The position numbers and the translations under genes were made by a program. DNA of 64,000 bases from Bacillota bacterium (GTDB lineage: Bacteria; Bacillota; Sulfobacillia; Sulfobacillales; Sulfobacillaceae): contig JAJYHT010000002.1 in assembly GCA_021784595.1 (NCBI GenBank), forward strand, positions 1 through 64,000. Direction: 5' to 3'. The notes below the pieces were generated by a model. It had not been told where the DNA came from and did not search any database. It saw only the letters and a list, made by a program, of their open reading frames with translations. Shown piece by piece: positions 3,439 through 18,229 of this stretch (positions within the stretch are counted from its first letter, which is position 1; each line of letters begins with the position of its first letter).

Positions 3439-4551
3439 ATGAGCTGGACTGGCAAGCTACCGTTATGGGATCATCATTGTCACACCCTGGTAAATCCAGA
3501 GCGCGCCACTGATTTGGAAGGATTGGCCCGTGCTCTAACGGAAGCTAAAGGAGATTATCCATTGTTGGATATCCAACAAACGGTGACCTACCAAGAGGCG
3601 CTTTATGTGGCCGCATCCCATTTAGGAACAAAATCCGATGAACTTGCCGTGCAAAGCGCGCTGGGTTCGGTCGATTACGAGAAATATTGTCACGACTTGT
3701 TTTTCGAGGCTGGCTATCAAAAGTTGCTTATTGATACCGGATATCAACCCCAAAGCGCATGGGACATCCAGGCGTTAAGCGCGGCGCTGAAATTGGACAT
3801 TTTGCCTGTGTTACGGTTGGAAACCATGGCTGAACGCTACCTTTCCGATTGCGAGGACGTTGATGACTGGGTGCAAGCAGTTCGCAACGACTTGCAAAAA
3901 GCCAGAACTCGGGGATATGTGGGAGTCAAGTCGATTATTGCATACCGCTCTGGCTTATTTGTGCATCCGGTGGCGCCCCCGGCGGCAAAAGCGGCCTACC
4001 GCGCCATGCGGGGAGAAGGCAGGACTCGACTGTCCAATGCGGACTTGCTGAACTATCTGTTGTGGGAGGTAACCCCGACTTTGATCCAAGAGGGACTACC
4101 CATCCAGTTTCATACCGGGTATGGCGATCCTGACACTGATCTCACCCAAGGCAATCCCCTTTTGCTTCGCGGATATTTTGAGAAGTACATCAATGAAGGC
4201 TTGCGGGTGGTGTTGCTGCATACCTACCCTTTTCATCGTGAGGCAGGATATTTGGCGTCCGTTTATCCGGGGGTGTATTTTGATGTCTCTCTGGCCGTGC
4301 CGCTAGCAGCCAGCGGAGCGCCGCGCATTATCGCCGAAGCGCTTGAACTAGCCCCGGTAAGCCGTTTCTTGTTTGCATCTGATGCCCATTCCCGTCCGGA
4401 AAGCTTCTTTTTAGGCGCCCGGTTGTGGCGAGCAGGCATTGACCGGTTTCTTGATAAAGTGGTAACAGAGCATCACGTATCGCCTGCGGTGGCTCACCGA
4501 TGGGCCTCGATGATATGCTGGGAAAACTGTCAAAAGCTATATTCCCTGTAA
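3439..4551 (+). CDS. FluG-type amidohydrolase
   Basis: An amidohydrolase_2 (TIM-barrel) protein of 370 residues. Metal-ligand motifs are DHHCHT near the N terminus, QFHTGYGD, LLHTYPFH and FASDAH near the end. The sequence layout matches the amidohydrolase domain that is fused in front of a GS-like domain in fungal FluG. Here the two halves are separate genes of the same operon (GS-like part at 2-964). The frame opens 59 codons earlier without a ribosome binding site. I chose ATG 3439, which follows a GAAGAGAGGT stretch and starts just before the HxH motif. It may hydrolyse a gamma-glutamyl amide or another C-N bond; this is inference. Confidence 0.85.
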   Translation: MSWTGKLPLWDHHCHTLVNPERATDLEGLARALTEAKGDYPLLDIQQTVTYQEALYVAASHLGTKSDELAVQSALGSVDYEKYCHDLFFEAGYQKLLIDTGYQPQSAWDIQALSAALKLDILPVLRLETMAERYLSDCEDVDDWVQAVRNDLQKARTRGYVGVKSIIAYRSGLFVHPVAPPAAKAAYRAMRGEGRTRLSNADLLNYLLWEVTPTLIQEGLPIQFHTGYGDPDTDLTQGNPLLLRGYFEKYINEGLRVVLLHTYPFHREAGYLASVYPGVYFDVSLAVPLAASGAPRIIAEALELAPVSRFLFASDAHSRPESFFLGARLWRAGIDRFLDKVVTEHHVSPAVAHRWASMICWENCQKLYSL

Positions 4552-4639: not shown

Positions 4640-5944
4640 TTAGTCGCGGGTTGCCGCCACTTCGGCGCTGGCAGCGCCTTGTGCCACCAGACGGGTATAG
4701 GATGGGCGGTCAATAACAAACAAGATTGCCACCAAGAATAGCAACATAAAGAAGATGGCGCTGCCAAACGCTGCGGGAAATCCCCAACGCGTGGCCAACC
4801 AGGTCAGAATGAGGGCATTAAAGGCCCCCATCACATTCAACACCCCGTTGTAAATACCATAGACCAGGCCAGAGGACTCGGGACTGGGTGCAATATCGAT
4901 GGCGTTGACGGCCCATGAACCCACCGTCAGATTCATGCAAAATTGGGCGAGACCAATAAATACGGCGGTACCGAAGGCGGAATGGGCGCTGGCCGACCAA
5001 AGTGACAAGGATACGGCAACAATCATAGCAGCCATGGGAACTCCGGCACCGATCCGTCGTGCCTTTAAGCGGTCAAAACGGCGGGTTAACGCATCGTTGA
5101 AGGGACCCGATAGAATAAATCCGACGAACCCCGCAGCAAAGCCGATACTAGACCAGGCCGCGCTTTTGATAATACCGATATGGAACGTGTAGTACATGTA
5201 GCTCGGAACCCAGGTGATAAATGTAAAGAGAATATAGCCAAAGGTTAAGAAGGTCAGCAACACGCCTATTCCTGTCCTGCTGAATACGACTCGCAGCGCT
5301 GCTCCCCAATCGCCTTTTTGCGCCGATGCGAAAGGGATGCCGATTTTTTCGCGTTCCGTCTCCGAGACCGTGGGATCTTCTTTAGGCGTGTTGCGGACCA
5401 CGGCCCACCAAATCGGCAGAAACACGATGCCTAGAATTCCAAAGGAGATGAAGGACCATTGCCACCCGAAGCGGACAACAATCCACCCAGCCAACAAGGT
5501 TCCGATGGTAGGCCCTAAATATTGACCCGATCCGGGAATGGTAAAGGCTCGAGAGCGCTCTTGCGGAGCGGCCCAGGTACGTGAGGATTTGCTATTAATG
5601 GCCCAAATGGGGGCTTCGCCAGCACCCATCAAGCCACGAATCCACAGCCAGCCCATAAAAGAACCGGAAAACGCGGTCATGATCGTAAACAGAGACCACC
5701 AGCCTAAAGATGCCACCATCCCCAATCGAATACCCAGACGGTCCGCAATGTAGCCGCCGGGAAAGTTGAACAAGGCATAGACAATCGTAAATACAAACGC
5801 GATGGTACCCATTTGTTCCAGAGAAAAGTTAAATTGGTGACGAATGGCCGGAATCGACACGGCAAAATTGACGCGATCCATGTAATTGATGAAAATAGCA
5901 ACAAACATCAAACCAAAAATCCAGTAGCGTTTATGCGTGGTCAT
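4640..5944 (-). CDS. MFS transporter, anion:cation symporter (ACS)-like
   Basis: A 434-residue protein with about 12 hydrophobic segments. The start region INYMDRVNFAVSIP is typical of the ACS group (GudP/GarP/phthalate-type carriers), and the loop after helix 2 carries GGYIADRLGIR, the major facilitator motif. It should import an organic acid or sugar acid. It begins at ATG 5944, overlapping the stop of deoC by 4 bases (ATGA), so the two are translationally coupled. The pairing with deoC suggests a deoxy-sugar or aldol-derived substrate, but the ACS family mostly carries carboxylates, so the substrate stays open. Confidence 0.88.
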   Translation of the reverse strand: MTTHKRYWIFGLMFVAIFINYMDRVNFAVSIPAIRHQFNFSLEQMGTIAFVFTIVYALFNFPGGYIADRLGIRLGMVASLGWWSLFTIMTAFSGSFMGWLWIRGLMGAGEAPIWAINSKSSRTWAAPQERSRAFTIPGSGQYLGPTIGTLLAGWIVVRFGWQWSFISFGILGIVFLPIWWAVVRNTPKEDPTVSETEREKIGIPFASAQKGDWGAALRVVFSRTGIGVLLTFLTFGYILFTFITWVPSYMYYTFHIGIIKSAAWSSIGFAAGFVGFILSGPFNDALTRRFDRLKARRIGAGVPMAAMIVAVSLSLWSASAHSAFGTAVFIGLAQFCMNLTVGSWAVNAIDIAPSPESSGLVYGIYNGVLNVMGAFNALILTWLATRWGFPAAFGSAIFFMLLFLVAILFVIDRPSYTRLVAQGAASAEVAATRD

Positions 5945-6594
5945 TGGTCCACCCCTTCCTTTACTAATGCTGGTCCAGCACTAGTGCCAATGCGATTAAT
6001 GCCGTGTTGGATAAGCTCAATAGCTTGAACGCGGGTGCGGATGCCACCCGCTGCCTTGACCCCGATATGTGGTGGGGTCATCTTGCGGATCCAGCTCATT
6101 TCTTCGATATCAGCACCTTTAGGGCCAAATCCTGTTGAATTTTTTACATAGTGAGCCTCTGCTTTAGCAATAGCATCAATGGCGAACAGGATGTGGTCGC
6201 GGGTTAGATACCCGGTTTCAATGATGACCTTGACCGGAGCCCCGCCTGCCGAACCGACCACTGCTTTGATATCTTCGGTGACGCCCGCCCAGTTGTTGTC
6301 CAACATCCAACCGATATTGGCCACCATATCAATTTCGCGTGCTCCCAGGCGCATCACATCATAGGTCTCATGCGCTTTGGCGCTAGTTGTTACCGAGCCA
6401 AAGGGAAAGGCTACGGTCGCTGCTACAGGAATCGGCGACGTGGAAAGGGCGCGAACCGCCGTCGCAACATTGGAAGAATTGACACAGTACGCTCCAAAAT
6501 GGTATTCGATGCATAACTGGGCCCCGTGTAAAATTGCCTCCGTAGTGGCATTGGGTTTCAAAATGGAATGGTCGATAGACGATGCCAGACGCAT
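5941..6594 (-). CDS. deoC: Deoxyribose-phosphate aldolase
   Basis: A 217-residue class I aldolase. SIDHSILKP opens the barrel, VKNSTGFG holds the Schiff-base lysine and GVKAAGGIRT the proton-relay lysine, both as in DeoC. It splits 2-deoxyribose-5-phosphate into glyceraldehyde-3-phosphate and acetaldehyde. ATG 6594 is preceded by GAGGGGAGACC. No other nucleoside catabolism genes are nearby, and the partner gene encodes an ACS-family carrier, so a related aldol substrate is possible. The upstream leader contains a strong hairpin and the antiterminator-like glpP gene. Confidence 0.92.
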   Translation of the reverse strand: MRLASSIDHSILKPNATTEAILHGAQLCIEYHFGAYCVNSSNVATAVRALSTSPIPVAATVAFPFGSVTTSAKAHETYDVMRLGAREIDMVANIGWMLDNNWAGVTEDIKAVVGSAGGAPVKVIIETGYLTRDHILFAIDAIAKAEAHYVKNSTGFGPKGADIEEMSWIRKMTPPHIGVKAAGGIRTRVQAIELIQHGINRIGTSAGPALVKEGVDQ

Positions 6595-6688
6595 AGTCGA
6601 GGTCTCCCCTCAAAACGATTTTTACCTACCCCGCAATATTTTGGTCAGGAGTGCGGGTTTCCCGCATACAGATTTCGTTTCACAACAA

Positions 6689-6724
6689 AGGCCCTTCCCA
6701 CAGCAACGCTGCGGGGAAGGGCCT
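6689..6724 (-). terminator. Hairpin in the glpP-deoC intergenic region
   Basis: An 11-bp stem (AGGCCCTTCCC paired with GGGAAGGGCCT) with a 14-base loop, followed on the minus strand by a T-rich TTTGTTGT. It ends glpP transcription, or it is an attenuator in the leader of deoC. Confidence 0.65.
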
Positions 6725-6806
6725 CTTTTACTCTAAGCTTCCATGATAGCCTATTCGCTATCAGTGACATTAATTCCTCTCAAAACGTCCATCTGAAGAA
6801 AAAATT

Positions 6807-7352
6807 TTATAGGGACCATAGGGCGGGTTGCCCGATCTCCACACTCGCTCCCATCTCAATGAGATGATCGCGAGTTAATAAAGACCGAACTAAACCCGCT
6901 GCGACGACGGGGATGCCTCGTTGGTTCAACTCATGACGAATGAGAGGATACACCACTGCGGGAAGGCAACATAAAACATCCGGTTTTAAACGATCAACGG
7001 CCGCCAGACTAGAATCCAGACTTTGGGTGTCGTGGATAAAGACCCGCAACACTAACCTTAGCCGTAATTGGCGAACCTGGTGGGCTAGTGTCAGGTTGCT
7101 CGTCGCTATAGCGGCGGGGGCTATCAGTGCGTTAAGTACGTCTAGTCCTTCTCGGTCCTTGGCGAGTCCAGCAATCATGTCGGGGTGAATCCAGATCGTT
7201 TTCTGTGCGTTAACCAGGGGTTGTACAAACTCTTTGATCGTTTTAAGTCCGCCACCCGCTACATGCACTAACGGCCAAGGAGACAGCACGGCGTGGTCCC
7301 TTTGCGCGATGGTCCACACTGAGGGAATAATGGGCGGCAAATCTTGAACCAC
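6807..7352 (-). CDS. glpP: GlpP-family (glycerol-3-phosphate responsive) antiterminator
   Basis: A 181-residue single-domain protein of the GlpP family, a TIM-barrel-like RNA-binding regulator. Recognisable parts are HVAGGG, WIHPDMIAGLAKD, ATSNLTLAHQV, DVLCCLP and the C-terminal GIPVVAAGLV...LLTRDHLIEMGA block. In Bacillus GlpP prevents termination in glp leaders when glycerol-3-phosphate is bound. Here there are no glp genes beside it; instead deoC and an MFS gene follow on the same strand behind a hairpin. Start is GTG 7352. It may sense a phosphorylated three- to five-carbon compound and control the deoC leader (inference). Confidence 0.82.
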   Translation of the reverse strand: MVQDLPPIIPSVWTIAQRDHAVLSPWPLVHVAGGGLKTIKEFVQPLVNAQKTIWIHPDMIAGLAKDREGLDVLNALIAPAAIATSNLTLAHQVRQLRLRLVLRVFIHDTQSLDSSLAAVDRLKPDVLCCLPAVVYPLIRHELNQRGIPVVAAGLVRSLLTRDHLIEMGASVEIGQPALWSL

Positions 7353-7547: not shown

Positions 7548-8885
7548 TTAATATCGAAACCGATGATAGGCGGCGATCTCTTCTTCTGGTTTGCCGCGGT
7601 AAAAGTCGGCTTCCGACCGCTTTACAGCCAGGTAGCTTTCTGTCAACAGCGGTCCTAGGGAATCTATCAATAAGGAATCTTTGGACAGAGCTTCTAAAGC
7701 CTGATCGAGGCTGGTGGGCAGTCTGACAATGTTTTTCATGAGCCGTTCTGCTTCAGTCAATTGCCCGGGGTTGATTAACATCGGGTCACCGGGATCCAAC
7801 TGGCGATCAATCCCATCCAAACCCGCGGCTATCAAACCGCCTAACGCGAGGTAGGGATTGGCGGCTAAATCCGCCGGTTTGAATTCCACATTGATACTTT
7901 GAGAAACGTGCGTTCGCATAGGGGATGCTACGCGCAGGGGAGCTTCCCGGTTGTCAGGACCCCAGCATGCATAGCTCGAACTCCACGTGTTTGGGGTTAA
8001 CCGTTGGTACGAATTGGCGGTCGGAGTGGTCAAACCCAACAGGGCTGGCAGGTGATGCAAAATACCGGCCATAAATTGGTATCCCAGCGAGCTTAAATGG
8101 TAACGGTCCGAGTCGCTATAAAACAAGTTTTGACCGAATTCATCGGATGCACTGAAATGAATATGGCCGCCGTTGCCGGCCTGATCCAAAAAGGGCTTAG
8201 GAGCAAACGACGCCCGCACCCCATGCTTTTGTGCCAGTGCGCGGATAGTCTCGCGAATGTAGAGTTGCTGAGTGGCGGCTTCCATGGCCGGGGCATGTCG
8301 AACGGAAATCTCATGTTGCCCGGCTCCGAGTTCGGGATAATATTGTTCGAGCAGAATCCCTTGCGATTGCAATGCTTGCGCGACATCGGCCACAAAATCT
8401 TGGGATGTCAACATGCCCAGTGAAGCGAAACAGAGCGTGTTGTCCCATGGTTTTTCCTCATTGTCAATAAGGCTGAACTCGTTTTCGATGCTGGCTTGAA
8501 TGGTCAAACCGCGGGACTCAGCCTGTCGCAGCATGCGGTTTAGGAAGTCGCGGGGGCATCCGGGCCAAGGATTGCCGTCCAGGTCAACCATAGTTGTGAA
8601 TGCAGCCGCAGTGGCCGGCGCATAGGGCAATACACGAAAGGTCTGCAGGTCAGGTACGAGTCGGATCTCGCCGACCGGACCCATCTCTGGGACATCTTGC
8701 AGTTGGTCCAGGCTGTTCATGGCTTGCATGGCCACAGTTAAACCAATGCCACTGGCCAGACGCGCTGGCAGTGTAGGATAATAGGCAGATTTGCCCCGGA
8801 TGATGCCGCCGTTGTCGCAGTACAAGAAACGCACAAACTGTATTTTTTGTTGATCGACTGCGCTAATTACGTCCTCGATAGTCAT
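7548..8885 (-). CDS. Glutamine-synthetase-like ligase (second copy)
   Basis: A complete GS-fold protein of 445 residues: N-terminal beta-grasp with FVRFLYCDNGGIIRGK, then the catalytic part with SIENEFSLIDNE, ELGAGQHEIS, NGGHIHFS, NSYQRLTPNTW and NVEFKPADLAANPYL. The His-loop and the arginine region differ from ammonia-using GS (HVSQSINVEFK replaces the Arg-Glu-Arg pattern), so an amine or other nucleophile is likely. ATG 8885 follows GGGAGGATTTT. It is divergent from the third GS-like gene and heads the minus-strand group with glpP, deoC and the MFS carrier. Confidence 0.88.
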   Translation of the reverse strand: MTIEDVISAVDQQKIQFVRFLYCDNGGIIRGKSAYYPTLPARLASGIGLTVAMQAMNSLDQLQDVPEMGPVGEIRLVPDLQTFRVLPYAPATAAAFTTMVDLDGNPWPGCPRDFLNRMLRQAESRGLTIQASIENEFSLIDNEEKPWDNTLCFASLGMLTSQDFVADVAQALQSQGILLEQYYPELGAGQHEISVRHAPAMEAATQQLYIRETIRALAQKHGVRASFAPKPFLDQAGNGGHIHFSASDEFGQNLFYSDSDRYHLSSLGYQFMAGILHHLPALLGLTTPTANSYQRLTPNTWSSSYACWGPDNREAPLRVASPMRTHVSQSINVEFKPADLAANPYLALGGLIAAGLDGIDRQLDPGDPMLINPGQLTEAERLMKNIVRLPTSLDQALEALSKDSLLIDSLGPLLTESYLAVKRSEADFYRGKPEEEIAAYHRFRY

Positions 8886-9076: not shown

Positions 9077-10414
9077 GTGAACATGGACAAAGTCAATCAA
9101 CTCATCGAAGAACATGATATTGAGATAGTGCGTGTGGTGTTCAATGACAACGCCAACGTTGCCCGTGCGCGCAATATCCCGGTCAAGTTCTTTCGCGACA
9201 CCGTGGCGGAAAAAGGTGTGCAGTATCCCTCTGCAATGCTGTCAGTAGATACCTCGGCTAACTTTGTGCTGGCGGCTGGGGAAGGATTTGCAGGCGGCTA
9301 CGGCAGTTGGCTTCTTAAAATTGACCCTGATACCTTCCATGTTATTCCATGGGCCAAGAAGAGTGCTCGAGTCATTGCCGATCTGTACACTCTAGAAGGC
9401 GAACCGGTGCAAGTGGCGCCACGCTCAGTACTGAGAAAAGTACTGAACGAATTGGACCGCGAGGGCTTGAAGTCCTATGGGGCGGCTGAACTCGAGTTCT
9501 ATATCTTTAAGCAGTACGACCAATCGGGGTATGAACCCACGTGGACCGGTCTTCAGTGTTATTCCGAGGTTAAGCAGGGTGAGGTTGACGACATCCTTTA
9601 CGACATCACAGTAGGCTTGGCGGCCGTGGGAATTCATGTGGAAGCGGCCAATACCGAGTATGGTCCGGGACAATTCGAAATTACCATGAACCCTCAATGG
9701 GGAGTGGGACAGGCTGATGCTGCGTTTACTTTTAAGGCCGCGATAAAGGAAATGATGGCGCAGCGAGGGCTCTTGGCCACCTTTATGACTAAGCCTTTAA
9801 CGGGACTTAGTGGCAGCGGCAGTCATTTTCATCATTCTTTATATGACAAAGCGACGGGGCAGAACGTCTTTTATAATGCTGCGGCCGCCGATGGGCTTAG
9901 TGATGTAGCCAAACACTTCATCGCGGGACAGCTTTACCACGCCAAAGCCATATCCGCCTTGGCCAACCCCACGATTAACTCGTATCACCGTCTGCGGCCC
10001 TATACCTTTGCACCGAGCAATGTGACTTGGGGTTTGGAGAACCGCATGTGCATGATCCGAATTCCTGGAGCTCGTGGCCAAGGAACGCACTTGGAAAATC
10101 GTTTGCCGGGAGCCGACATGAATCCTTATCTAATGATGGCGGCGATGTACGCGGCCGGCTTGGACGGCATTCGCAGGAAGCTTGCCGTGCCCGCACCAGT
10201 GGAAAATCAAGATGCCTACGCTCTTCAATCAGCGCCTTCATTACCGAGGAATTTAGCTGAAGCATTGGCGGCCTTGAATGCGGATGATGAATTGATCCCG
10301 TATCTAGGAGCCGACTTTGTCAAAAGCTACACCGCTTTAAAGATGAATGAATTGAATCGGTTCGCCGATCATGTGACCGATTGGGAAATTCGAGAGTATC
10401 GCGAGCTCTTTTAG
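9077..10414 (+). CDS. Glutamine-synthetase-like ligase (third copy)
   Basis: A 445-residue GS-fold protein, closest of the three to canonical GS in its motifs: AAELEFYIF, GPGQFEITM, GSGSHFHHS, NSYHRLRP and HLENRLPGADMNPYL. The frame opens earlier, but GTG 9077 sits 9 bases behind ACAAGGAG and gives the same length as the second copy, so I prefer it (ATG 9083 is the alternative). It is followed at once by the AhpD-like and Dabb genes and then an amino-acid permease, forming a plus-strand operon. The likely reaction is ATP-dependent glutamylation of an imported amine (inference from the PuuA/IpuC/GlnA4 families). Confidence 0.88.
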   Translation: MNMDKVNQLIEEHDIEIVRVVFNDNANVARARNIPVKFFRDTVAEKGVQYPSAMLSVDTSANFVLAAGEGFAGGYGSWLLKIDPDTFHVIPWAKKSARVIADLYTLEGEPVQVAPRSVLRKVLNELDREGLKSYGAAELEFYIFKQYDQSGYEPTWTGLQCYSEVKQGEVDDILYDITVGLAAVGIHVEAANTEYGPGQFEITMNPQWGVGQADAAFTFKAAIKEMMAQRGLLATFMTKPLTGLSGSGSHFHHSLYDKATGQNVFYNAAAADGLSDVAKHFIAGQLYHAKAISALANPTINSYHRLRPYTFAPSNVTWGLENRMCMIRIPGARGQGTHLENRLPGADMNPYLMMAAMYAAGLDGIRRKLAVPAPVENQDAYALQSAPSLPRNLAEALAALNADDELIPYLGADFVKSYTALKMNELNRFADHVTDWEIREYRELF

Positions 10415-10430: not shown

Positions 10431-10853
10431 ATGGGTTTAGTTGAGGGTATTCGGGAAGAAGATGCTACCGGTTTAGTCAAAGAGGTTTTTGAGGATATGA
10501 AAAGGGTGCGCGGATGGGATCGCATTCCGGTCATTTGGCGGGTGATGGCGGTGCAGCCCGAGTATCTCAAGGCCAACTGGGATCGTTATCGCAGCATCAT
10601 GCTGCGGGGCAGCATTGATTTGCGGGTTAAAGAGATGTTGGCTCTTGCGGTCAGCATGGTTAACCGGTGCAGCTACTGAATTGATAGTCACTCTTTCGCG
10701 TTGCGAAAGATGGGGGTAACAGATGAAGAGTTGGTGGAGATGGTGTCGGTGATCGATTTCTTTTCGGGCACCAATGCGTTGACCAGCGGTTTGAAAATTG
10801 AATTCGAATGGCCCAAAGAGACCTTGGATAAAGACCCGGGGCTAGGCAGGTGA
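10431..10853 (+). CDS. AhpD/carboxymuconolactone-decarboxylase-like protein, candidate selenoprotein (CxxU)
   Basis: ATG 10431 follows AGGAGGTG and starts a protein that resembles AhpD-fold peroxidases (LRVKEMLALAVSMVNRCSY). The frame meets TGA at 10677-10679 and then continues in the same frame with IDSHSFALRKMGVTDEELV up to a TGA at 10851. AhpD proteins have CxxCxxxH; here the pattern is C-S-Y-TGA-I-D-S-H, so the TGA stands exactly at the second redox cysteine. This is the position where selenocysteine replaces cysteine in CxxU selenoproteins. A SECIS-like hairpin follows at 10692-10710. Read through, it has 140 residues, a normal family length. The alternative is a nonsense mutation or sequencing error of TGC/TGT. 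Role: thiol/selenol-dependent reduction of peroxides or a decarboxylase-like function in the GS-like operon. Confidence 0.72.
10692..10710 (+). promoter_or_regulatory. SECIS-like hairpin (bacterial)
   Basis: A perfect 8-bp stem (TCTTTCGC with GCGAAAGA) and a 3-base loop GTT. The loop starts 20 bases after the in-frame TGA. Bacterial SECIS elements need a short stem-loop about 16-37 bases after the UGA with G (often GU) at the start of the apical loop; all of this is met. Confidence 0.65.
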
Positions 10854-10857
10854 TGTG

Positions 10858-11172
10858 ATGAGTGCCATGCAGCACATGGTTTTAATAAAGTTCTTGCATG
10901 CGCTGAGCGATGAAGAAACAGCCTGGATTGATCAACGGTTGAGCCAATGGCCTCGGAGCATTCCGGGAATTGCTCGGATGCGTTGGGGCGTAGACGTAAG
11001 TGGCCGGGCACGAGGATATCAATGGGGACTGGTCATCGAGTTCTCTTCAGAAGAGGCTGAGTCCCACTATCACCCTCATCCTCTACACCAAGAATTTGCA
11101 CAGTGGGTGGCGGGAAAGGGAGCAGAAGTTCTGGCGTTTGATTTTCCGATTGCTCCAGGGAATGATCCGTAA
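10858..11172 (+). CDS. Dabb-family (stress-responsive A/B barrel) protein
   Basis: A 104-residue protein with the Dabb pattern: N-terminal HMVLIKF strand, GIARMRWGVDVS, then GLVIEFSSEEA and a C-terminal HPLHQEFAQWV helix. Dabb domains are small ferredoxin-like dimers, including enzymes and olivetolic acid cyclase-type proteins in secondary metabolism. It starts at ATG 10858, just 4 bases after the AhpD-like gene, so it is translated with it. Its role in this pathway is unknown. Confidence 0.8.
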   Translation: MSAMQHMVLIKFLHALSDEETAWIDQRLSQWPRSIPGIARMRWGVDVSGRARGYQWGLVIEFSSEEAESHYHPHPLHQEFAQWVAGKGAEVLAFDFPIAPGNDP

Positions 11173-11238: not shown

Positions 11239-12846
11239 ATGAGTGCACCACATTCTGGTTCCGCAAAAGAATCAGCAAATGTCCTGCAGCAAGGCGGTTA
11301 TCGCAAAGAGCTGGGATTTTGGACGGTGGTATTTTTGGCCACTGGAGGGATTTTAGGGCCCGCAGTCGGATTCACCCCGGTGTCAGTCTTGGCGCTCGCC
11401 GGGCCTTCAGGAATCCTCTCCTGGATTATTGCTTTTGTCCTCATCTTCGCCGTAGCCATGGCGTATGTGGAATTAGGGACGATGTGGCCGCGTGCTGGAG
11501 GAGTAGCCTATTATCCGGCCAAAAGCAGCGGTCCTATTGTTGGAGTCATGAACGCCTGGGGCTCGTTTGTGGGGTACGCGCTGGCGGTGCCATCGATTGT
11601 GGTGGCGTTTGTTGAGTATTTGAGTTATTGGTTTCCCTCGTTGTATAAAAACGGCATACTGACCACGACAGGTATTGTGACGGCGATTCTAGTGACTCTC
11701 GTCATCTTCTTCATCAATACGTTGCGAATTCGGTACATGGGACAATTGAACAACGTGTTCACCGTGGTGACCATCGTTGGACTGGTAGTCGTCAGTGTGG
11801 TTTTGCTAGGACATTACCACGCTAACAACTTTACTCGCTTTCATGGCTTTATGCCCTTTGGCACCACGGGCGTGTTTTTGGCTATTTCCGCCACCATTTA
11901 TGGCTATGGAGGATTTCGCCAACCCATCGATTATGCGGAAGAGGTTAAAGACCCGGGACGTACTATCCCCAAGGCCGTGATTTTAACCATGATTATTACC
12001 ATGGTAGTCTATTTCTTAGAGAGTATTTCTTATGCGGGTGCGATAAGCTGGAAGGGACTAGGGTTGACACCCGGCAATTGGGCAGGACTTAATACCTTGG
12101 CATACCCGTTCGTTTCGGTATCCCATGGCATTGGGTTGCCGCTCATTGGCCTGATTGCCATGGTGACCATGTTGGTGGCCTCGTTCAAGGATGGGTATAT
12201 ATACTTTGGCGGTGCCAGCCGCGTAGGATATTCGTTGGGGCAATATGACGGGTATCTTCCAAAAGTATTTACCAAAATGACCAAGAATGGGATCCCGCTG
12301 CCCTCGGTGATATTGGTGTTGGTGGTTTCTTCTCTTTATATCATCTTATTGCCCTCTTTTTCCTCGTTATTTCCCTTGGTGGCCAGTGCGCTGCTGTTGT
12401 CCTACGCGCCCGGCCCTTTGAGCCTTGCCATTTTCCGAGTCAAGTATCCCAACGAGCCCCGACCCTATGTGCTGCCGGCAGTTAAGGTTCTGGCGCCCTT
12501 TGCGTTCATGATCAGCAGTCTTATGATCTATTGGTCTGGATGGGCCTCAGTGCACATTTTAATTCCCTCGGTGTTTGTCGGATTGCTGCTGCTCTTCTTT
12601 TACGTCCGCCACAGCAAGATTACTGGAGAAGACGTCAAGTATGGAATTTGGCTGCCGGTATTCCAAATTGTGCTGATGGCCTTGTCGTATCTAGGAAGCA
12701 GCAATTTCGGAGGTAAAAACGTGATCCCGTCACCCTGGGACAGTGTCCTGGTAGCGGTTGTTGCGCTAATTTTCTATTACTGGGGACTTAGCTCGGGCCT
12801 TAAGTGGAAGGAAAGCGACGTGGTCCAGGAGTCGTCAGCCTCGTAA
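11239..12846 (+). CDS. APC-superfamily amino acid/amine permease
   Basis: A 535-residue membrane protein with about 12-14 helices. The first helix holds TGGILGPAVGF, the unwound substrate-binding segment of APC transporters, and further on the TIYGYGGFRQPIDYAEEVKDPGR block marks helix 6 and the following loop. It should import an amino acid or amine. ATG 11239 follows AAGAAAGGAGTA. It closes the plus-strand operon of GS-like ligase, AhpD-like and Dabb proteins, and the pairing of a permease with a GS-like ligase recalls puuP-puuA. A bidirectional terminator lies behind it. Confidence 0.88.
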   Translation: MSAPHSGSAKESANVLQQGGYRKELGFWTVVFLATGGILGPAVGFTPVSVLALAGPSGILSWIIAFVLIFAVAMAYVELGTMWPRAGGVAYYPAKSSGPIVGVMNAWGSFVGYALAVPSIVVAFVEYLSYWFPSLYKNGILTTTGIVTAILVTLVIFFINTLRIRYMGQLNNVFTVVTIVGLVVVSVVLLGHYHANNFTRFHGFMPFGTTGVFLAISATIYGYGGFRQPIDYAEEVKDPGRTIPKAVILTMIITMVVYFLESISYAGAISWKGLGLTPGNWAGLNTLAYPFVSVSHGIGLPLIGLIAMVTMLVASFKDGYIYFGGASRVGYSLGQYDGYLPKVFTKMTKNGIPLPSVILVLVVSSLYIILLPSFSSLFPLVASALLLSYAPGPLSLAIFRVKYPNEPRPYVLPAVKVLAPFAFMISSLMIYWSGWASVHILIPSVFVGLLLLFFYVRHSKITGEDVKYGIWLPVFQIVLMALSYLGSSNFGGKNVIPSPWDSVLVAVVALIFYYWGLSSGLKWKESDVVQESSAS

Positions 12847-12924: not shown

Positions 12925-13608
12925 TCAAGGAAGTTCGATGGCCGTGCCGTAAGAGATTTCTTTAATGTTTGTGGCTTGGGGAAAAAGCGCGTCAAACACG
13001 TAATCGTCCAGACTGTGCAAGCCCGTAGAAGATAGATTGATGGAGCCGATCCGAAAGCTATAGCAGGGATTTTCATGGTTTCCAGCATAGACGGCCAGTT
13101 GACCTTGAGCGGATAGGGCCATAAAGTTGGCATGCCCTTTTAGAGCCTGATGGGTGGCAACCAGACTTTTTGCGAACGGCTGTCCGAGGGACAATTGTTG
13201 GAGCCAGTAGAGGTATCCCACTTCACTATCTGAGGTCCCTTTGAGTTGATCACTAAAGTCCGGCCGATATTCGCGATGGCGGCTAAGAAACCCATTGTGG
13301 GCAAATGCGAAAGTCCCTTCTGGGTCGCAATAGGGTTGGGCGTTAAGGTGGCTCTGTGACGACATTAGACTGGGCCGCCTTAGATGAATGAATGCGCGGT
13401 GCGTCGCGACTTGGCCTAAAACATCCCAAGCGTGCTGGTCGTATTTTAGACCTAGAACCGAACGGTAACGATGCAACCCGCTGTCATCAACCCAAGCCAT
13501 GCCCCAGCCATAACTGGCCACGCCTAGTTCTTCCAACAAACGGGCCCAGGTCAAAGTTTGCTTCATATCCAAAGGTTGGTTGGAAGTCAACGCCAACATT
13601 TCACACAT
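12925..13608 (-). CDS. Class II glutamine amidotransferase domain protein (YafJ/EgtC-like)
   Basis: A 227-residue stand-alone class II (Ntn) amidotransferase. It starts MCEMLA, so after removal of Met the nucleophile is Cys2. GWGMAWVDD, THRAFIHLRRPS and the FAHNGFL motif form the glutamine pocket. Stand-alone members such as EgtC cleave gamma-glutamyl amide bonds rather than serve a synthase. Here that could release glutamate from gamma-glutamyl intermediates made by the GS-like ligases (inference). It is a single minus-strand gene convergent with the permease, with only a weak ribosome binding site. Confidence 0.85.
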   Translation of the reverse strand: MCEMLALTSNQPLDMKQTLTWARLLEELGVASYGWGMAWVDDSGLHRYRSVLGLKYDQHAWDVLGQVATHRAFIHLRRPSLMSSQSHLNAQPYCDPEGTFAFAHNGFLSRHREYRPDFSDQLKGTSDSEVGYLYWLQQLSLGQPFAKSLVATHQALKGHANFMALSAQGQLAVYAGNHENPCYSFRIGSINLSSTGLHSLDDYVFDALFPQATNIKEISYGTAIELP

Positions 13609-13987
13609 GATAAGGGAACCTGCCTTTCTATCCAGCTGTTTTCATCTGGCCCAAGGTGTTGAAGCACTTAAGCTCTTTGTCGCCTGAAGACAAACATAGA
13701 ATGAAACCCCTGTTCCAAAGCTTCGTGGGAATGATCTGAGCATTTAAGATGGCTCTATCGTTTAAAAGCTCTGTGAAAACGTCCCCAATGACGATTTCAA
13801 CCAACAGGATCAACACCCGATTGACTAATTCGCGATTGGTTCAGCGGTTCCTGCTTGCAGCAGAAATTTTAGCATCTAAGGCTGGACAGGCAGGAAATTT
13901 GACATCAGTGGCGAAATCTATAGAAATGGAATTGAAATTCTATTTTCCTAAGATGGGTGGTACTAAACGCCCAGGACAGGAGGATTG
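13609..13987. other. Intergenic region upstream of the IclR gene
   Basis: About 380 bases between divergent genes. I see no convincing gene; the only short frames have no family features. It holds the palindrome at 13921-13942 and presumably both promoters. Confidence 0.6.
13921..13942. promoter_or_regulatory. Imperfect palindrome, possible IclR operator
   Basis: A 22-base imperfect palindrome with arms TAGAA...TTCTA and central AATT; 16 of 22 positions are symmetric. It is 46 bases in front of the IclR-family start, where autoregulators usually bind. Confidence 0.4.
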
Positions 13988-14761
13988 ATGGCGGCCCGAC
14001 AGGAATCACCGGCGCCATCCTTGCGTGCTTTGGAGCGAGGATTGCAGATGTTGGATTACCTCATTCGAGTCAAAGAAGGCCGATTGCATCGCATCGCCGA
14101 AGAAACCAAACTTCCGCCCTCTACAGCGCACCGCTTGTTGCAGGCATTGGAGAACCATGGGTATGTGGTTAGTGAGGATCACGGGCTATATCGATTAGGT
14201 GTAAAAGGACTTTGGTTTACTTCGGCACGCGAGCCGATCCGTCAAGTGCTTGAGGAATTGCGCCGACAATCCGGCGAAACCGCCAACTTTGCCATGTTGG
14301 TGCGTGATGAAATGGAGTATGTGGAGCGTGCTGTTTCGGATCATGCACTGTCTTTTGTGGTGTCGATTGGGGAGCGGATTCCTCTCAATTGCAGTGCGCT
14401 CGGTAAGGCGATATTGGCCTATCGACCCGAATTGCTAGAAGGCATTGTGATGGAACGCCGCACGGCCCACTCGATAATGGATCCGGTAGAACTGCACGCC
14501 GATTTGGAAGTAGCGCGCCATCGCGGTTTTACGGTCGACAATGAAGAATATTTTGAGGGCGTGTTTTGTGTTGCAGTACCGGTATTTGACCGCGCCGGAG
14601 CGGCCGTGGGTGGTGTCTCGATCTCGGGGCCGACCGTGCGCTTCTCAAAGGATCAGGCCTTTATGCAGGCATCCGTCTTAAAGGCGGCTGGCGAACGGGT
14701 CAGCCATTTGTTGGATGACACGAGGAGCCAAGATGACAACGGTCTTCAAAAAGGAGATTAG
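13988..14761 (+). CDS. IclR-family transcriptional regulator
   Basis: A 257-residue protein with the IclR layout: winged helix-turn-helix at about 10-70 (ALERGLQMLDYL, then LPPSTAHRLLQALENHGYV) and the effector-binding domain at about 80-250 (LNCSALGKAILAY, GFTVDNEEYFEGVFCVAVPVFD, GGVSISGP). IclR proteins control catabolic operons in response to a small acid. ATG 13988 lies 4 bases behind AGGAGG. It is followed without a gap by a cupin, an aminotransferase, an SDR and another cupin, so it very likely controls this cluster and itself. Confidence 0.92.
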   Translation: MAARQESPAPSLRALERGLQMLDYLIRVKEGRLHRIAEETKLPPSTAHRLLQALENHGYVVSEDHGLYRLGVKGLWFTSAREPIRQVLEELRRQSGETANFAMLVRDEMEYVERAVSDHALSFVVSIGERIPLNCSALGKAILAYRPELLEGIVMERRTAHSIMDPVELHADLEVARHRGFTVDNEEYFEGVFCVAVPVFDRAGAAVGGVSISGPTVRFSKDQAFMQASVLKAAGERVSHLLDDTRSQDDNGLQKGD

Positions 14762-15208
14762 ATGATGGAAAACAGAGAAGGGGCCGGAGGATATTTTTTT
14801 GTTCCCGACAAACGGGTGGTTGACATCGCCGAGGACAATCCGCCGCAATATATCAACATAGATCAGTTGTCAATGGCGATTGTCGCTGAAGGATTGGGGT
14901 TAAAACCGATTTACGGACAGAACATGATGCTGTCGTTTGTTTATATGAAACCGCATTCGGTGGCGGCACTGCACAGCCATCCCGAAGAGCAAATTGGTTT
15001 GGTGCTTGAGGGAGAGTATGAATTTGAGCTGAACGGGGTTAGGAAGATGATTGGCAAAGGCGATGTGTATGTTGTTCCTCCCAATGTGCCTCATGGCGCG
15101 GTGACGTATGACAAGTCATGCGTGGCATTGGATATTTTCTCCCCGCCGCGATCAGGATATCGGGAAATGCTCCAGGCAGCAAAAAAGGTGGTGACCTTCG
15201 ATGAGTAA
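14762..15208 (+). CDS. Cupin-domain protein
   Basis: A single-domain cupin of 148 residues. Motif 1 is HSHPEEQIGLVLEGEYEF and motif 2 is VYVVPPNVPHGAV, giving the usual His/Glu/His metal ligands. Start ATG 14762 directly follows the IclR stop (AAAGGAGA upstream). The end overlaps the aminotransferase start by 8 bases. Such proteins are often metal-dependent isomerases, lyases or dioxygenases; function not assignable. It resembles the second cupin at 16919 in layout (DIFSP...REM/RELI ending), suggesting an old duplication. Confidence 0.82.
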   Translation: MMENREGAGGYFFVPDKRVVDIAEDNPPQYINIDQLSMAIVAEGLGLKPIYGQNMMLSFVYMKPHSVAALHSHPEEQIGLVLEGEYEFELNGVRKMIGKGDVYVVPPNVPHGAVTYDKSCVALDIFSPPRSGYREMLQAAKKVVTFDE

Positions 15209-16169
15209 TGAATCTATGGCTAAAGGGCCCTCGGCTCGCAAGGAAATTGAAGATGGCTTGTGTTTTTTTAAGGGTCAAATCATGCCATTGGCCGAAGCCA
15301 CCGTAGGTGTGGCGACTCATGCTTTGAATTATGGTACGGGTTGTTTTGAAGGCATTCGGGCCTACTGGAACGAGGATGCGGGGCAGCTTTACATTCTTAA
15401 GGGGTTGGAGCATTACCAGCGGTTGCTGCGTTCGGCGAAAATATTAAAAATCTCGGTGCCTTATTCCGCCCAAGAGCTGTTGGAGTGGACGGTTAAGATA
15501 CTCTCCCTAAACGGGTTCCGTCAGGATGTGTACATTCGTCCCTTAGCGTTTAAAGCGGCGCAACTGATTAAGGTTACGTTGACTGGAGTGCGCGACGACT
15601 TGGCCATATTTGCGGTCCCAATGGGAGATTATGTATCGACTCAAGGGCTAAAGGTCACTGTCTCCAACTGGCAGCGCATTGCGGATAACATTATTCCCTC
15701 CCGGGCTAAGGTGACCGGAGCATATATCAACGCGGCGTTAGCCAGCGATGCCGCGACTGCGGACGGCTACGACGAGGCCATTATGCTGGGGCAAGATGGC
15801 CAGGTGGCCGAAGCCAGTTCATCCAACCTCTTTATTGTAAGGGACAATAAGGTCATTACCTCGCCGGTAACAGCCGATATTTTGGAGGGCATTACCCGTC
15901 AGGCTGTGTTTGAGCTAGCACACGACATCGGGTTGGCTACCGAAGAGCGAGCCATTGATCGAACTGAGCTTTATGTTGCGGACGAAGTGTTTTTGTGCGG
16001 AACCGGGGTGCAATTGGCCGGTGTGGTAGAGATTGACCATCGCGCGATAGGCGATGGCACCATGGGGCCTTTAACACGGCGCCTTCAGTCGCTGTATTTT
16101 GATGCTGTCAGAGGAAACGATTCCCGGTATCGTCATTGGTTGACACCAGTATATGGGGGAGGGAACTAA
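15201..16169 (+). CDS. ilvE: Branched-chain amino acid aminotransferase (fold IV PLP enzyme)
   Basis: A 322-residue class IV aminotransferase. NYGTGCFEGIRAYW is the N-terminal signature, RAKVTGAYIN carries the PLP lysine, and EASSSNLFIV plus GITRQAV are family motifs. Known members move the amino group between branched-chain amino acids and 2-oxoglutarate. In an IclR-governed catabolic cluster it might act on a pathway amino acid rather than in general biosynthesis. It overlaps the upstream cupin by 8 bases; the SDR starts one base after its stop. Confidence 0.9.
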   Translation: MSNESMAKGPSARKEIEDGLCFFKGQIMPLAEATVGVATHALNYGTGCFEGIRAYWNEDAGQLYILKGLEHYQRLLRSAKILKISVPYSAQELLEWTVKILSLNGFRQDVYIRPLAFKAAQLIKVTLTGVRDDLAIFAVPMGDYVSTQGLKVTVSNWQRIADNIIPSRAKVTGAYINAALASDAATADGYDEAIMLGQDGQVAEASSSNLFIVRDNKVITSPVTADILEGITRQAVFELAHDIGLATEERAIDRTELYVADEVFLCGTGVQLAGVVEIDHRAIGDGTMGPLTRRLQSLYFDAVRGNDSRYRHWLTPVYGGGN

Positions 16170-16170
16170 C

Positions 16171-16908
16171 GTGGATCTTGGCTTAAAGGGTCAAGTGGCA
16201 ATAGTTAGCGGAGGTTCGCGAGGTATCGGACGCGCTATCGTACAAGAACTGTTGGACGAGGGGGTACAGGTTGCCACCGGTACCCGCCACCCCCAAGACT
16301 TGGACGGATTGCCCCCCCAAGGGAATCTTATGACGGGCCGCCTTGATGTGACCGATGTGTCCAGCATTGACGAATTTGTGGATGCGGTGATGGCACGCTG
16401 GGGACGTGTTGACATGTTGGTCAACAACGCGGGAAAAGCCTATCCCGGATCCTTTGCTATCCTGACCGATGAGGATTGGCAGCGCGACATTGATGTCAAA
16501 TTGATGGCGCAAATTCGTATGGCTCGCAAGGTATTGACCGTGATGCCAGATGGCGGGCGGATAATTAACATGTCGGCGGTCTTTGGCAAACAACCCGATC
16601 CGCGGTTTTTTGCCTCCAGTGTCAACCGCGCGTCCTGTTTGTCGTTAACCAAAACATTGGCCCGTGAACTGGCAGCCCGTAAAATTCGGGTAAACGCGGT
16701 CAATATCGGGTTTGTCTATTCGGGGCAATGGGATGGTAAAACACCGGAGTTTTTTGAAAAAATGTGCCAGACCTTTGAAGTCCCGTTGGCCCGGTTTGGC
16801 GAGCCTAGGGAAGTAGCGGCGGTCGCCGCGTTTTTGTTGTCTGAACGTGCTTCCTATCTTACGGGCACTATAATCGACGTCGATGGCGGAATGGCTAAAT
16901 ATCTTTAA
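16171..16908 (+). CDS. Short-chain dehydrogenase/reductase (SDR)
   Basis: An SDR of 245 residues with the NAD(P) motif SGGSRGIG and NNAGKAYPG. The catalytic Tyr-x3-Lys site looks altered: the expected YxxSK region reads ASSVNRASCLSLTK, with no tyrosine in the usual place, so activity is uncertain. The C-terminal IDVDGGMAKYL is normal. GTG 16171 sits 7 bases behind GGGGGAGGG, better than the in-frame ATG 16153. It lies between the aminotransferase and the second cupin of the IclR cluster. Confidence 0.85.
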   Translation: MDLGLKGQVAIVSGGSRGIGRAIVQELLDEGVQVATGTRHPQDLDGLPPQGNLMTGRLDVTDVSSIDEFVDAVMARWGRVDMLVNNAGKAYPGSFAILTDEDWQRDIDVKLMAQIRMARKVLTVMPDGGRIINMSAVFGKQPDPRFFASSVNRASCLSLTKTLARELAARKIRVNAVNIGFVYSGQWDGKTPEFFEKMCQTFEVPLARFGEPREVAAVAAFLLSERASYLTGTIIDVDGGMAKYL

Positions 16909-16918
16909 GGAGGAACTC

Positions 16919-17326
16919 ATGACCAACCGCGATTATTTCCCAGACCAGGTGATTTGGGATGGCACGATGGAATATCCTTCGAGTTTTGAGTCGATGCCTG
17001 CCGCCAAAGGTTTTGAGGCGGCTCCGGGGGTGGTGCTGCGTCCCTTTTTTGGTCAACGGATGATGGCCAGTTATGTGACTTTCGCGCCGGGGGCTGAGGC
17101 TCCGATTCATCAACACTTGCAGGAGCAGTTCAGTAAAATTGTGTCGGGACGCCTGCTGTTTACAGTGGGTGAAACCACTCGCTGGATGGAGAGTGGGGAT
17201 ATTGTATCGATTCCGTCCAATGTGCCGCATAAAGCGACGGCTGGTGACCAAGGATGTGTGGCCATTGACATGTTTTCACCCATCCGTGACGGATTTAGAG
17301 AACTAATAGCCGCACAAAACCCTTAG
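16919..17326 (+). CDS. Cupin-domain protein
   Basis: A 135-residue single cupin. Motif 1 contains PIHQHLQEQFSKIVSGRLLF and motif 2 contains VSIPSNVPHKA. ATG 16919 follows AAGGAGGAACTC. It resembles the cupin at 14762 in length and in its MFSP...REL end. It is the last intact gene of the IclR cluster; behind it come remnants of an amidohydrolase that still has its own ribosome binding site. Confidence 0.82.
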   Translation: MTNRDYFPDQVIWDGTMEYPSSFESMPAAKGFEAAPGVVLRPFFGQRMMASYVTFAPGAEAPIHQHLQEQFSKIVSGRLLFTVGETTRWMESGDIVSIPSNVPHKATAGDQGCVAIDMFSPIRDGFRELIAAQNP

Positions 17327-17848: not shown

Positions 17849-18229
17849 CTACATCAACAACGAGGTCACTTCGCACTGTGTGGGCTGCGGCCCGTTGGCG
17901 GACAGCTTCTTGGTATGATTTGAGAGCCAACCGGCAATGGTCTCCACGGATAAATGTCTCTCTGCAACATGAACGACAAAATCCTCAATCTCTTGATGTG
18001 CACCCATAATTGAGATGCCATTTAGGTGCAGGAATAGACTGGCGGCTAAAAACGCGGTACGTTTGTTGGCATCATGAAACGGATGATTGAGTACCAATGA
18101 GTGAAGCATAGCCGATGCTTTCTCAATTGATGTTGGGTAAGCATCGTTTCCAAATACAGTTGTTTGAGGGCGTGCCAGAGCCGATTTGAGCCCACCAATA
18201 TCGCGCACGCTTGCCTCGCGACCCGTCAA
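17849..18229 (-). pseudogene. Doc/Fic-type toxin, N-terminally truncated
   Basis: The frame of 126 residues contains the Fic-fold motif HPFHDANKRTA and the Doc-type context ALARPQTTVFGNDAYP, so it is a death-on-curing relative that would phosphorylate EF-Tu (family knowledge). About 20 residues of the usual N terminus are missing; the frame begins at a TTG exactly where homology to an MFS gene begins on the other strand. No Phd-like antitoxin is adjacent. The catalytic motif is intact, but I regard the gene as a truncated remnant. Confidence 0.6.

Follow-up and report, generated by a model that had tools for sequence, protein, structure and literature searches.

A very probable AhpD-like selenoprotein encoded in a conserved γ-glutamyl-ligase gene cluster of Sulfobacillaceae

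AhpD-like selenoproteins entered the catalogues in 2006-2008 and appear again in a 2026 review, in three types: AhpD-like 1 (COG2128, CxxU), AhpD-like 2 (pfam02627, CxxU) and a TIGR01926 type, also CxxU (PMC1794560, PMC2398784, PMC13188914). Among Cys-containing AhpD proteins, that of Mycobacterium tuberculosis has a proton relay to which Glu118, Cys130, Cys133 and His137 belong (PMC3141380). For Sulfobacillus, a genome paper mentions formate dehydrogenase as the only selenocysteine (Sec) protein (PMC4378227).

Here we describe an ahpD-like gene with an in-frame TGA, found in a 64,000-nucleotide stretch (the window; contig JAJYHT010000002.1) of a genome from the Sulfobacillaceae. Judged from sequence comparison, it is with high confidence a genuine selenoprotein gene whose UGA is very probably read as Sec at the active site, and it very probably represents a new subfamily within a known kind, the AhpD-like CxxU selenoproteins. 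The computed basis comprises the Sec machinery, the conserved TGA, the conserved hairpin, selection past the TGA and the conserved cluster; from these we infer Sec incorporation itself, together with the redox chemistry, substrate and reductant. Like the catalogued examples, the protein has a CMD/AhpD domain with Sec replacing the second Cys of CxxC, Cys homologues, and a hairpin just downstream. It differs from them in its length of 140 residues, in belonging to a clade from the bacterial family of the window, set in a γ-glutamyl-ligase cluster, and in scoring below the TIGR01926 cut-off. The initial annotation placed its novelty too high, given the long-standing catalogue of CxxU AhpD-like selenoproteins. 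Literature searches, with most subscription journals outside their coverage, retrieved no paper on this AhpD-like subfamily, nothing relevant on Sulfobacillus selenoproteins and no paper combining AhpD with a γ-glutamyl system. The protein type is known, while the subfamily and its γ-glutamyl-ligase setting seem to be undescribed so far.

The protein and its active site

The coding sequence (Table 1) reads MGLVEG...SMVNRCSYU-IDSHSFALRKMG...GLGR and contains a single internal TGA, which takes the place of the second redox Cys in the context CSYU-IDSH. Both the frame and the alignment to the AhpD model TIGR00777 confirm this placement of the TGA in a CxxU...H context, as proposed in the initial annotation. 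The open reading frame list shows just an 82-residue piece of the gene, the frame being cut at the TGA. When the TGA was taken as a residue in the profile search, the PF02627 (CMD) match spanned it, covering residues 43-122 (E 4e-18) and exceeding the gathering score (65.6 vs 23 bits). The 'normal stop' said to end the downstream reading turns out to be another TGA, albeit one that is followed by no SECIS-like hairpin.

Residues 68-108 aligned without gaps to positions 118-158 of TIGR00777, placing E68, C80, U83 and H87 on Glu118, Cys130, Cys133 and His137, respectively, which are the relay residues of the M. tuberculosis protein (PMC3141380). The AhpD active-site pattern E-x11-C-x2-C-x3-H is thus satisfied, with Sec as the second Cys. 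His132 of the M. tuberculosis enzyme corresponds to Tyr82 here, much as PA0269 has Tyr50 (PMC3141380). Unlike M. tuberculosis AhpD, the window protein has Sec for Cys133 and is shorter, and no AhpC partner was recognised in its cluster. It scored 62.1 bits against the TIGR01926 peroxidase-related enzyme model (cut-off 81.8 bits) and reached no named NCBIfam protein or selenoprotein equivalog above cut-off. The AlphaFold2 model is all-helical, with a mean pLDDT of 81.5 and mostly low values at residues 120-140. Its best fold match is the AhpD core of Rhodospirillum rubrum (PDB code 2ouw; Z 13.2, rmsd 3.1 over 116 residues, 35% identity), which is also the nearest solved structure by sequence (E 3.8e-28).

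Table 1. Features of the ahpD-like locus, with positions numbered from the start of the window
Feature	Position	Strand	Remarks
Amidohydrolase linked to cluster	3439..4551	+	PF04909; near the ligases in most relatives
Second GS-like ligase, nearest γ-glutamylputrescine synthetase	7548..8885	-	NF045547 467 bits, cut-off 650
GS-like γ-glutamyl ligase	9083..10414	+	directly upstream in operon; PF00120 E 9e-102; under all named GS equivalog cut-offs
ahpD-like gene, very probable selenoprotein	10431..10853	+	140 aa, Sec at residue 83, terminal stop TGA 10851-10853; PF02627 match and orthologues
UGA very probably read as selenocysteine (U83)	10677..10679	+	second Cys of CxxCxxxH; basis, orthologue comparison
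SECIS-like hairpin	10692..10710	+	8 bp, loop GTT 10700-10702; conforms to published bSECIS model (PMC13188914)
Dabb (stress responsive A/B barrel) protein	10855..11172	+	PF07876 E 1e-15; alternative start 10858
APC amino-acid/amine permease	11239..12846	+	PF13520 E 4e-51
Class-II glutamine amidotransferase-like protein, candidate γ-glutamyl hydrolase	12925..13608	-	PF13230 E 3e-7
IclR-like regulator	13985..14761	+	ORF, named by sequence resemblance; conserved in cluster
Cupin 1	14762..15208	+	PF07883; conserved in cluster
Class-IV aminotransferase	15201..16169	+	PF01063 E 2e-45
Short-chain dehydrogenase/reductase (SDR)	16153..16908	+	PF13561 E 4e-51
Cupin 2	16883..17326	+	PF07883

Orthologues and the hairpin

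Orthologues were sought in 154 genomes of the class and by a scan of a named genome collection. Strong matches occurred in nine of the class genomes, and eight of these contain one in-frame TGA: that of the window, G004, G006, G009, G019, G020, G029 and the more distant G424. Among same-family orthologues, the window counted, seven of eight have TGA at the site, all seven with a hairpin; the eighth (G026) has TGC and lacks the hairpin. The named collection, in which one TGA orthologue was identified as Sulfobacillus benefaciens AMDSBA4, added further hairpin-less Cys orthologues from Alicyclobacillus mengziensis (TGT), DX2.bin20 (TGC) and Clostridiales PH28_bin88 (TGC), so that the same codon is TGC or TGT in four Cys loci (L057, L058, L059 and L062). 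Identity of the orthologues to the window protein is 67-93% over most of its length. The close orthologues carry either TGA with a hairpin or Cys without one, and it is this comparison that decides the case. None of them has any other stop in the gene; the presence of such stops was what the initial annotation had named as counting against it. Past the TGA, the window and the S. benefaciens-type G004 differ by 15 synonymous and two nonsynonymous changes; judged from such substitutions, the codons after the TGA are under purifying selection, as expected of translated sequence.

The hairpin, TCTTTCGC-GTT-GCGAAAGA, has a stem that starts 12 nt and a loop that starts 20 nt after the TGA. Its stem, loop and distance, all as originally described, satisfy the published bacterial SECIS constraints (PMC13188914). 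The folding energy is -8.6 kcal/mol for the hairpin alone and -10.3 with its flanks, compared with just -6.7 for the G019 hairpin alone. With wobble pairs allowed, a hairpin of at least 8 pairs accompanies 2.8% of all TGAs in the window, and recoding the peptide with synonymous codons yields one of this length or longer in 4.9% of cases; the z-score of the fold stands at only -0.92. Since 3-5% of controls equal it and its z-score is low, the hairpin by itself was rejected as proof of Sec: alone it is weak evidence, and its weight comes from its conservation.

Each of the seven TGA genes of the family retains the element CTTTCGCGTTGCGRAAG; a double substitution turns one U-A pair into A-U, in G009 and at the outermost position, and a single one turns a U-A into U-G. 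Contiguous pairs at the identical offset number 7 or 8 in every one of these genes and at most 4 in each of the four Cys genes. Among the 59 codon columns in which a degenerate amino acid is unchanged, six have an invariant codon, and these fall on 4/5 hairpin columns vs 2/54 others (Fisher p = 1.6e-4, a guide only as the genes share descent). The invariant hairpin codons are those of F89, A90, L91 and K93, while most synonymous sites in the TGA genes vary. Covariation was slight, one pair being altered on both sides, a level matched by 62 of 500 shuffles, and with so little variation it was discarded as proof.

Beyond the family, the 48% identical homologue of G424 combines TGA with a -9.7 kcal/mol hairpin, and the 39% identical Sec homologue of G405 likewise has TGA and a hairpin, both at the same 20-nt offset and both with stem sequences differing from that of the window. 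A tree of the orthologues requires at least three changes between Sec and Cys. Its root and inner forks are poorly supported, so dating of Sec gain or loss was abandoned and no direction is claimed.

Other AhpD-like genes with TGA at the second Cys were encountered. In two order relatives (loci L033 in G041 and L042 in G040) a second AhpD-like family has the sequence CEPU-AVSH and a 6-bp hairpin at 17 nt; these are probable further selenoproteins. Longer AhpD proteins of the peroxidase-related kind, from other families in the phylum (L082, L084, L085), contain CHYU or CQYU, with hairpins of GGAGC-GGC-GCTCC or similar, also at 17 nt.

Selenocysteine genes and the surrounding cluster

The search for selA, selB, selC and selD suggested in the initial annotation located all four in the genome: selA (541 bits), selB (347) and selD (352) exceed their curated cut-offs, and a tRNA-Sec with anticodon TCA (UCA) is present. 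The selD gene itself has a Sec TGA (motif SGUGC), and in FdhA a TGA comes after ...DSCNRT, with a hairpin of -12.8 kcal/mol behind it. About 2.4 kb downstream of this FdhA piece (L100, contig C54 of the window genome, G000) lies a second one matching FdhA positions 1-52; the N-terminal part may thus be a separate gene. The selA gene (L002/L092; G000 contig C33, within 64640-65902) comes close to one of the refuting findings that the annotation had foreseen, having an in-frame TAA. The affected stretch reads KVH*SNF, against KVHQSNF (codon CAA or CAG) in six relatives, and the TAA is one base from CAA. It is either a sequencing or assembly error or a recent loss through a real nonsense mutation. 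Other above-cut-off selA matches in 60 relatives contain no stop. All genomes carrying a TGA orthologue have selA, as do those of all four Cys orthologues; the idea that the Cys forms are explained by missing machinery was accordingly dropped, and the use of Sec is not decided simply by machinery loss.

Matches to PF00120, PF07876 and PF13520 bear out the operon of GS-like ligase, Dabb protein and permease recognised at the outset. The wider gene set recurs in nearly all relatives compared, with no match for Dabb, aminotransferase or second cupin in G020 and G029. In A. mengziensis and DX2.bin20 the Cys-type AhpD gene sits between the SDR and second cupin genes, and in G424 the AhpD gene comes after the aminotransferase gene of the same cluster. 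In PH28 the cluster is absent and the Cys orthologue stands alone from it. A promoter and terminator scan gave results at chance level. Beside the cluster, at 4640-7352 on the minus strand, an MFS transporter, a DeoC-type aldolase and a glycerol-3-phosphate-responsive-antiterminator-like protein are encoded in a row, a trio found among the relatives compared only in G004. A short ORF at 17849-18229, also on the minus strand, has by eye a Fic/Doc-type look (motif HPFHDANKRTA).

The closest described parallel to the cluster is the glutamylation of aniline and 1-naphthylamine by AtdA1-A2 and NpaA1-A2 (PMC11335346), with which it shares a GS-like γ-glutamyl ligase and a glutamine-amidotransferase-like γ-glutamyl hydrolase. 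In contrast to those systems, the cluster shows no recognisable gene for a Rieske dioxygenase; the aminotransferase, SDR, cupins, AhpD and Dabb proteins are encoded instead. The two GS-like ligases score 296 and 467 bits against γ-glutamylputrescine synthetase (NF045547), below its cut-off of 650. With both ligases short of every named equivalog, and with no cluster gene recognisable as a Rieske oxygenase, that the pathway handles amines or amino acids is something that we infer. The tie to amine catabolism suggested initially finds partial support, in that the cluster is conserved; an amine as its substrate is conjecture.

Alternative readings and proposed role

Several other readings of the TGA were weighed. 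As Cys orthologues exist and a single base separates TGC or TGT from TGA, the codon might be a plain nonsense mutation, or a sequencing error, in a Cys-type ahpD pseudogene. Yet the same TGA is present in seven family genomes, at 67-93% identity to the window, and in G424; its carriers include the near-complete G020 and G029, each in 2-3 contigs; and the codons downstream are conserved. Such conservation refutes the pseudogene reading at the family level and leaves it highly improbable for the window gene. The open frame beyond the TGA would also suit a UGA read as Trp or Cys, through near-cognate decoding or a code change. This too is most improbable, for TGA serves as a stop in the organism, even ending this very gene, is restricted here to the redox Cys site, and goes together with a hairpin absent from the Cys orthologues, in a genome with a full Sec gene set. 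Less readily set aside, if still unlikely, is a Sec pathway dead or dying in this particular strain, so that UGA would terminate translation and leave an 82-residue fragment of what is a true selenoprotein gene in the relatives. It is the TAA in the only convincing selA, at a position where six relatives have Gln, that speaks for this. Against it, selB, tRNA-Sec, SelD, FdhA and AhpD all keep their Sec features, the other selA matches of relatives have no stop, and the TAA may equally well stem from a one-base assembly error or, should the genome be a metagenome bin, from a mixed population. The selA nonsense, if real, is probably recent, since the Sec genes show no decay.

The remaining alternative accepts the selenoprotein and concerns its task: rather than a dedicated pathway enzyme, it could be a general peroxide-detoxifying enzyme merely riding in the cluster. 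Peroxidase and adaptor roles are known for the AhpD family (PMC3141380), and both the PH28 Cys orthologue and the G405 Sec homologue lie outside the cluster, making this an appreciable possibility. Against it, in every family genome, in A. mengziensis, in DX2.bin20 and in G424 the gene remains among the same set of cluster genes, although their order varies.

Under the selenoprotein reading that we prefer, the gene product would be a 140-residue thiol-selenol oxidoreductase of AhpD/CMD fold. At UGA 10677, SelB with Sec-tRNA(UCA) would bind the hairpin and insert selenocysteine, the hairpin-less terminal UGA acting as an ordinary stop. In a relay formed by E68, C80, Y82, U83 and H87, Sec would stand where AhpD of M. 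tuberculosis has its second redox Cys, Cys133. A peroxide, or another electrophilic substrate made by the pathway, is the probable target of reduction by the selenolate, which would be regenerated via a C80-U83 selenenylsulfide. The cluster, for its part, probably serves to import an amine or amino acid, to attach it to glutamate and to transaminate or oxidise it. Participation in the catabolism of amines or amino acids is plausible, the enzyme role and the substrate being drawn from fold and neighbourhood only. It is a more tentative proposal, and on the doubtful side, that this is a dedicated Sec-dependent AhpD-fold enzyme serving a specific step, as opposed to general peroxide defence, in a new catabolic pathway for γ-glutamylated amines or amino acids in acidophilic Bacillota, and that its Sec and Cys forms are interchangeable.

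Standard gene prediction ends such genes at the TGA, and their function is lost from view. The locus offers an AhpD-like selenoprotein tied to a specific metabolic cluster in acidophiles, and the matched Sec and Cys orthologues of its clade, within one conserved cluster, amount to a natural experiment on the reasons for using selenocysteine.
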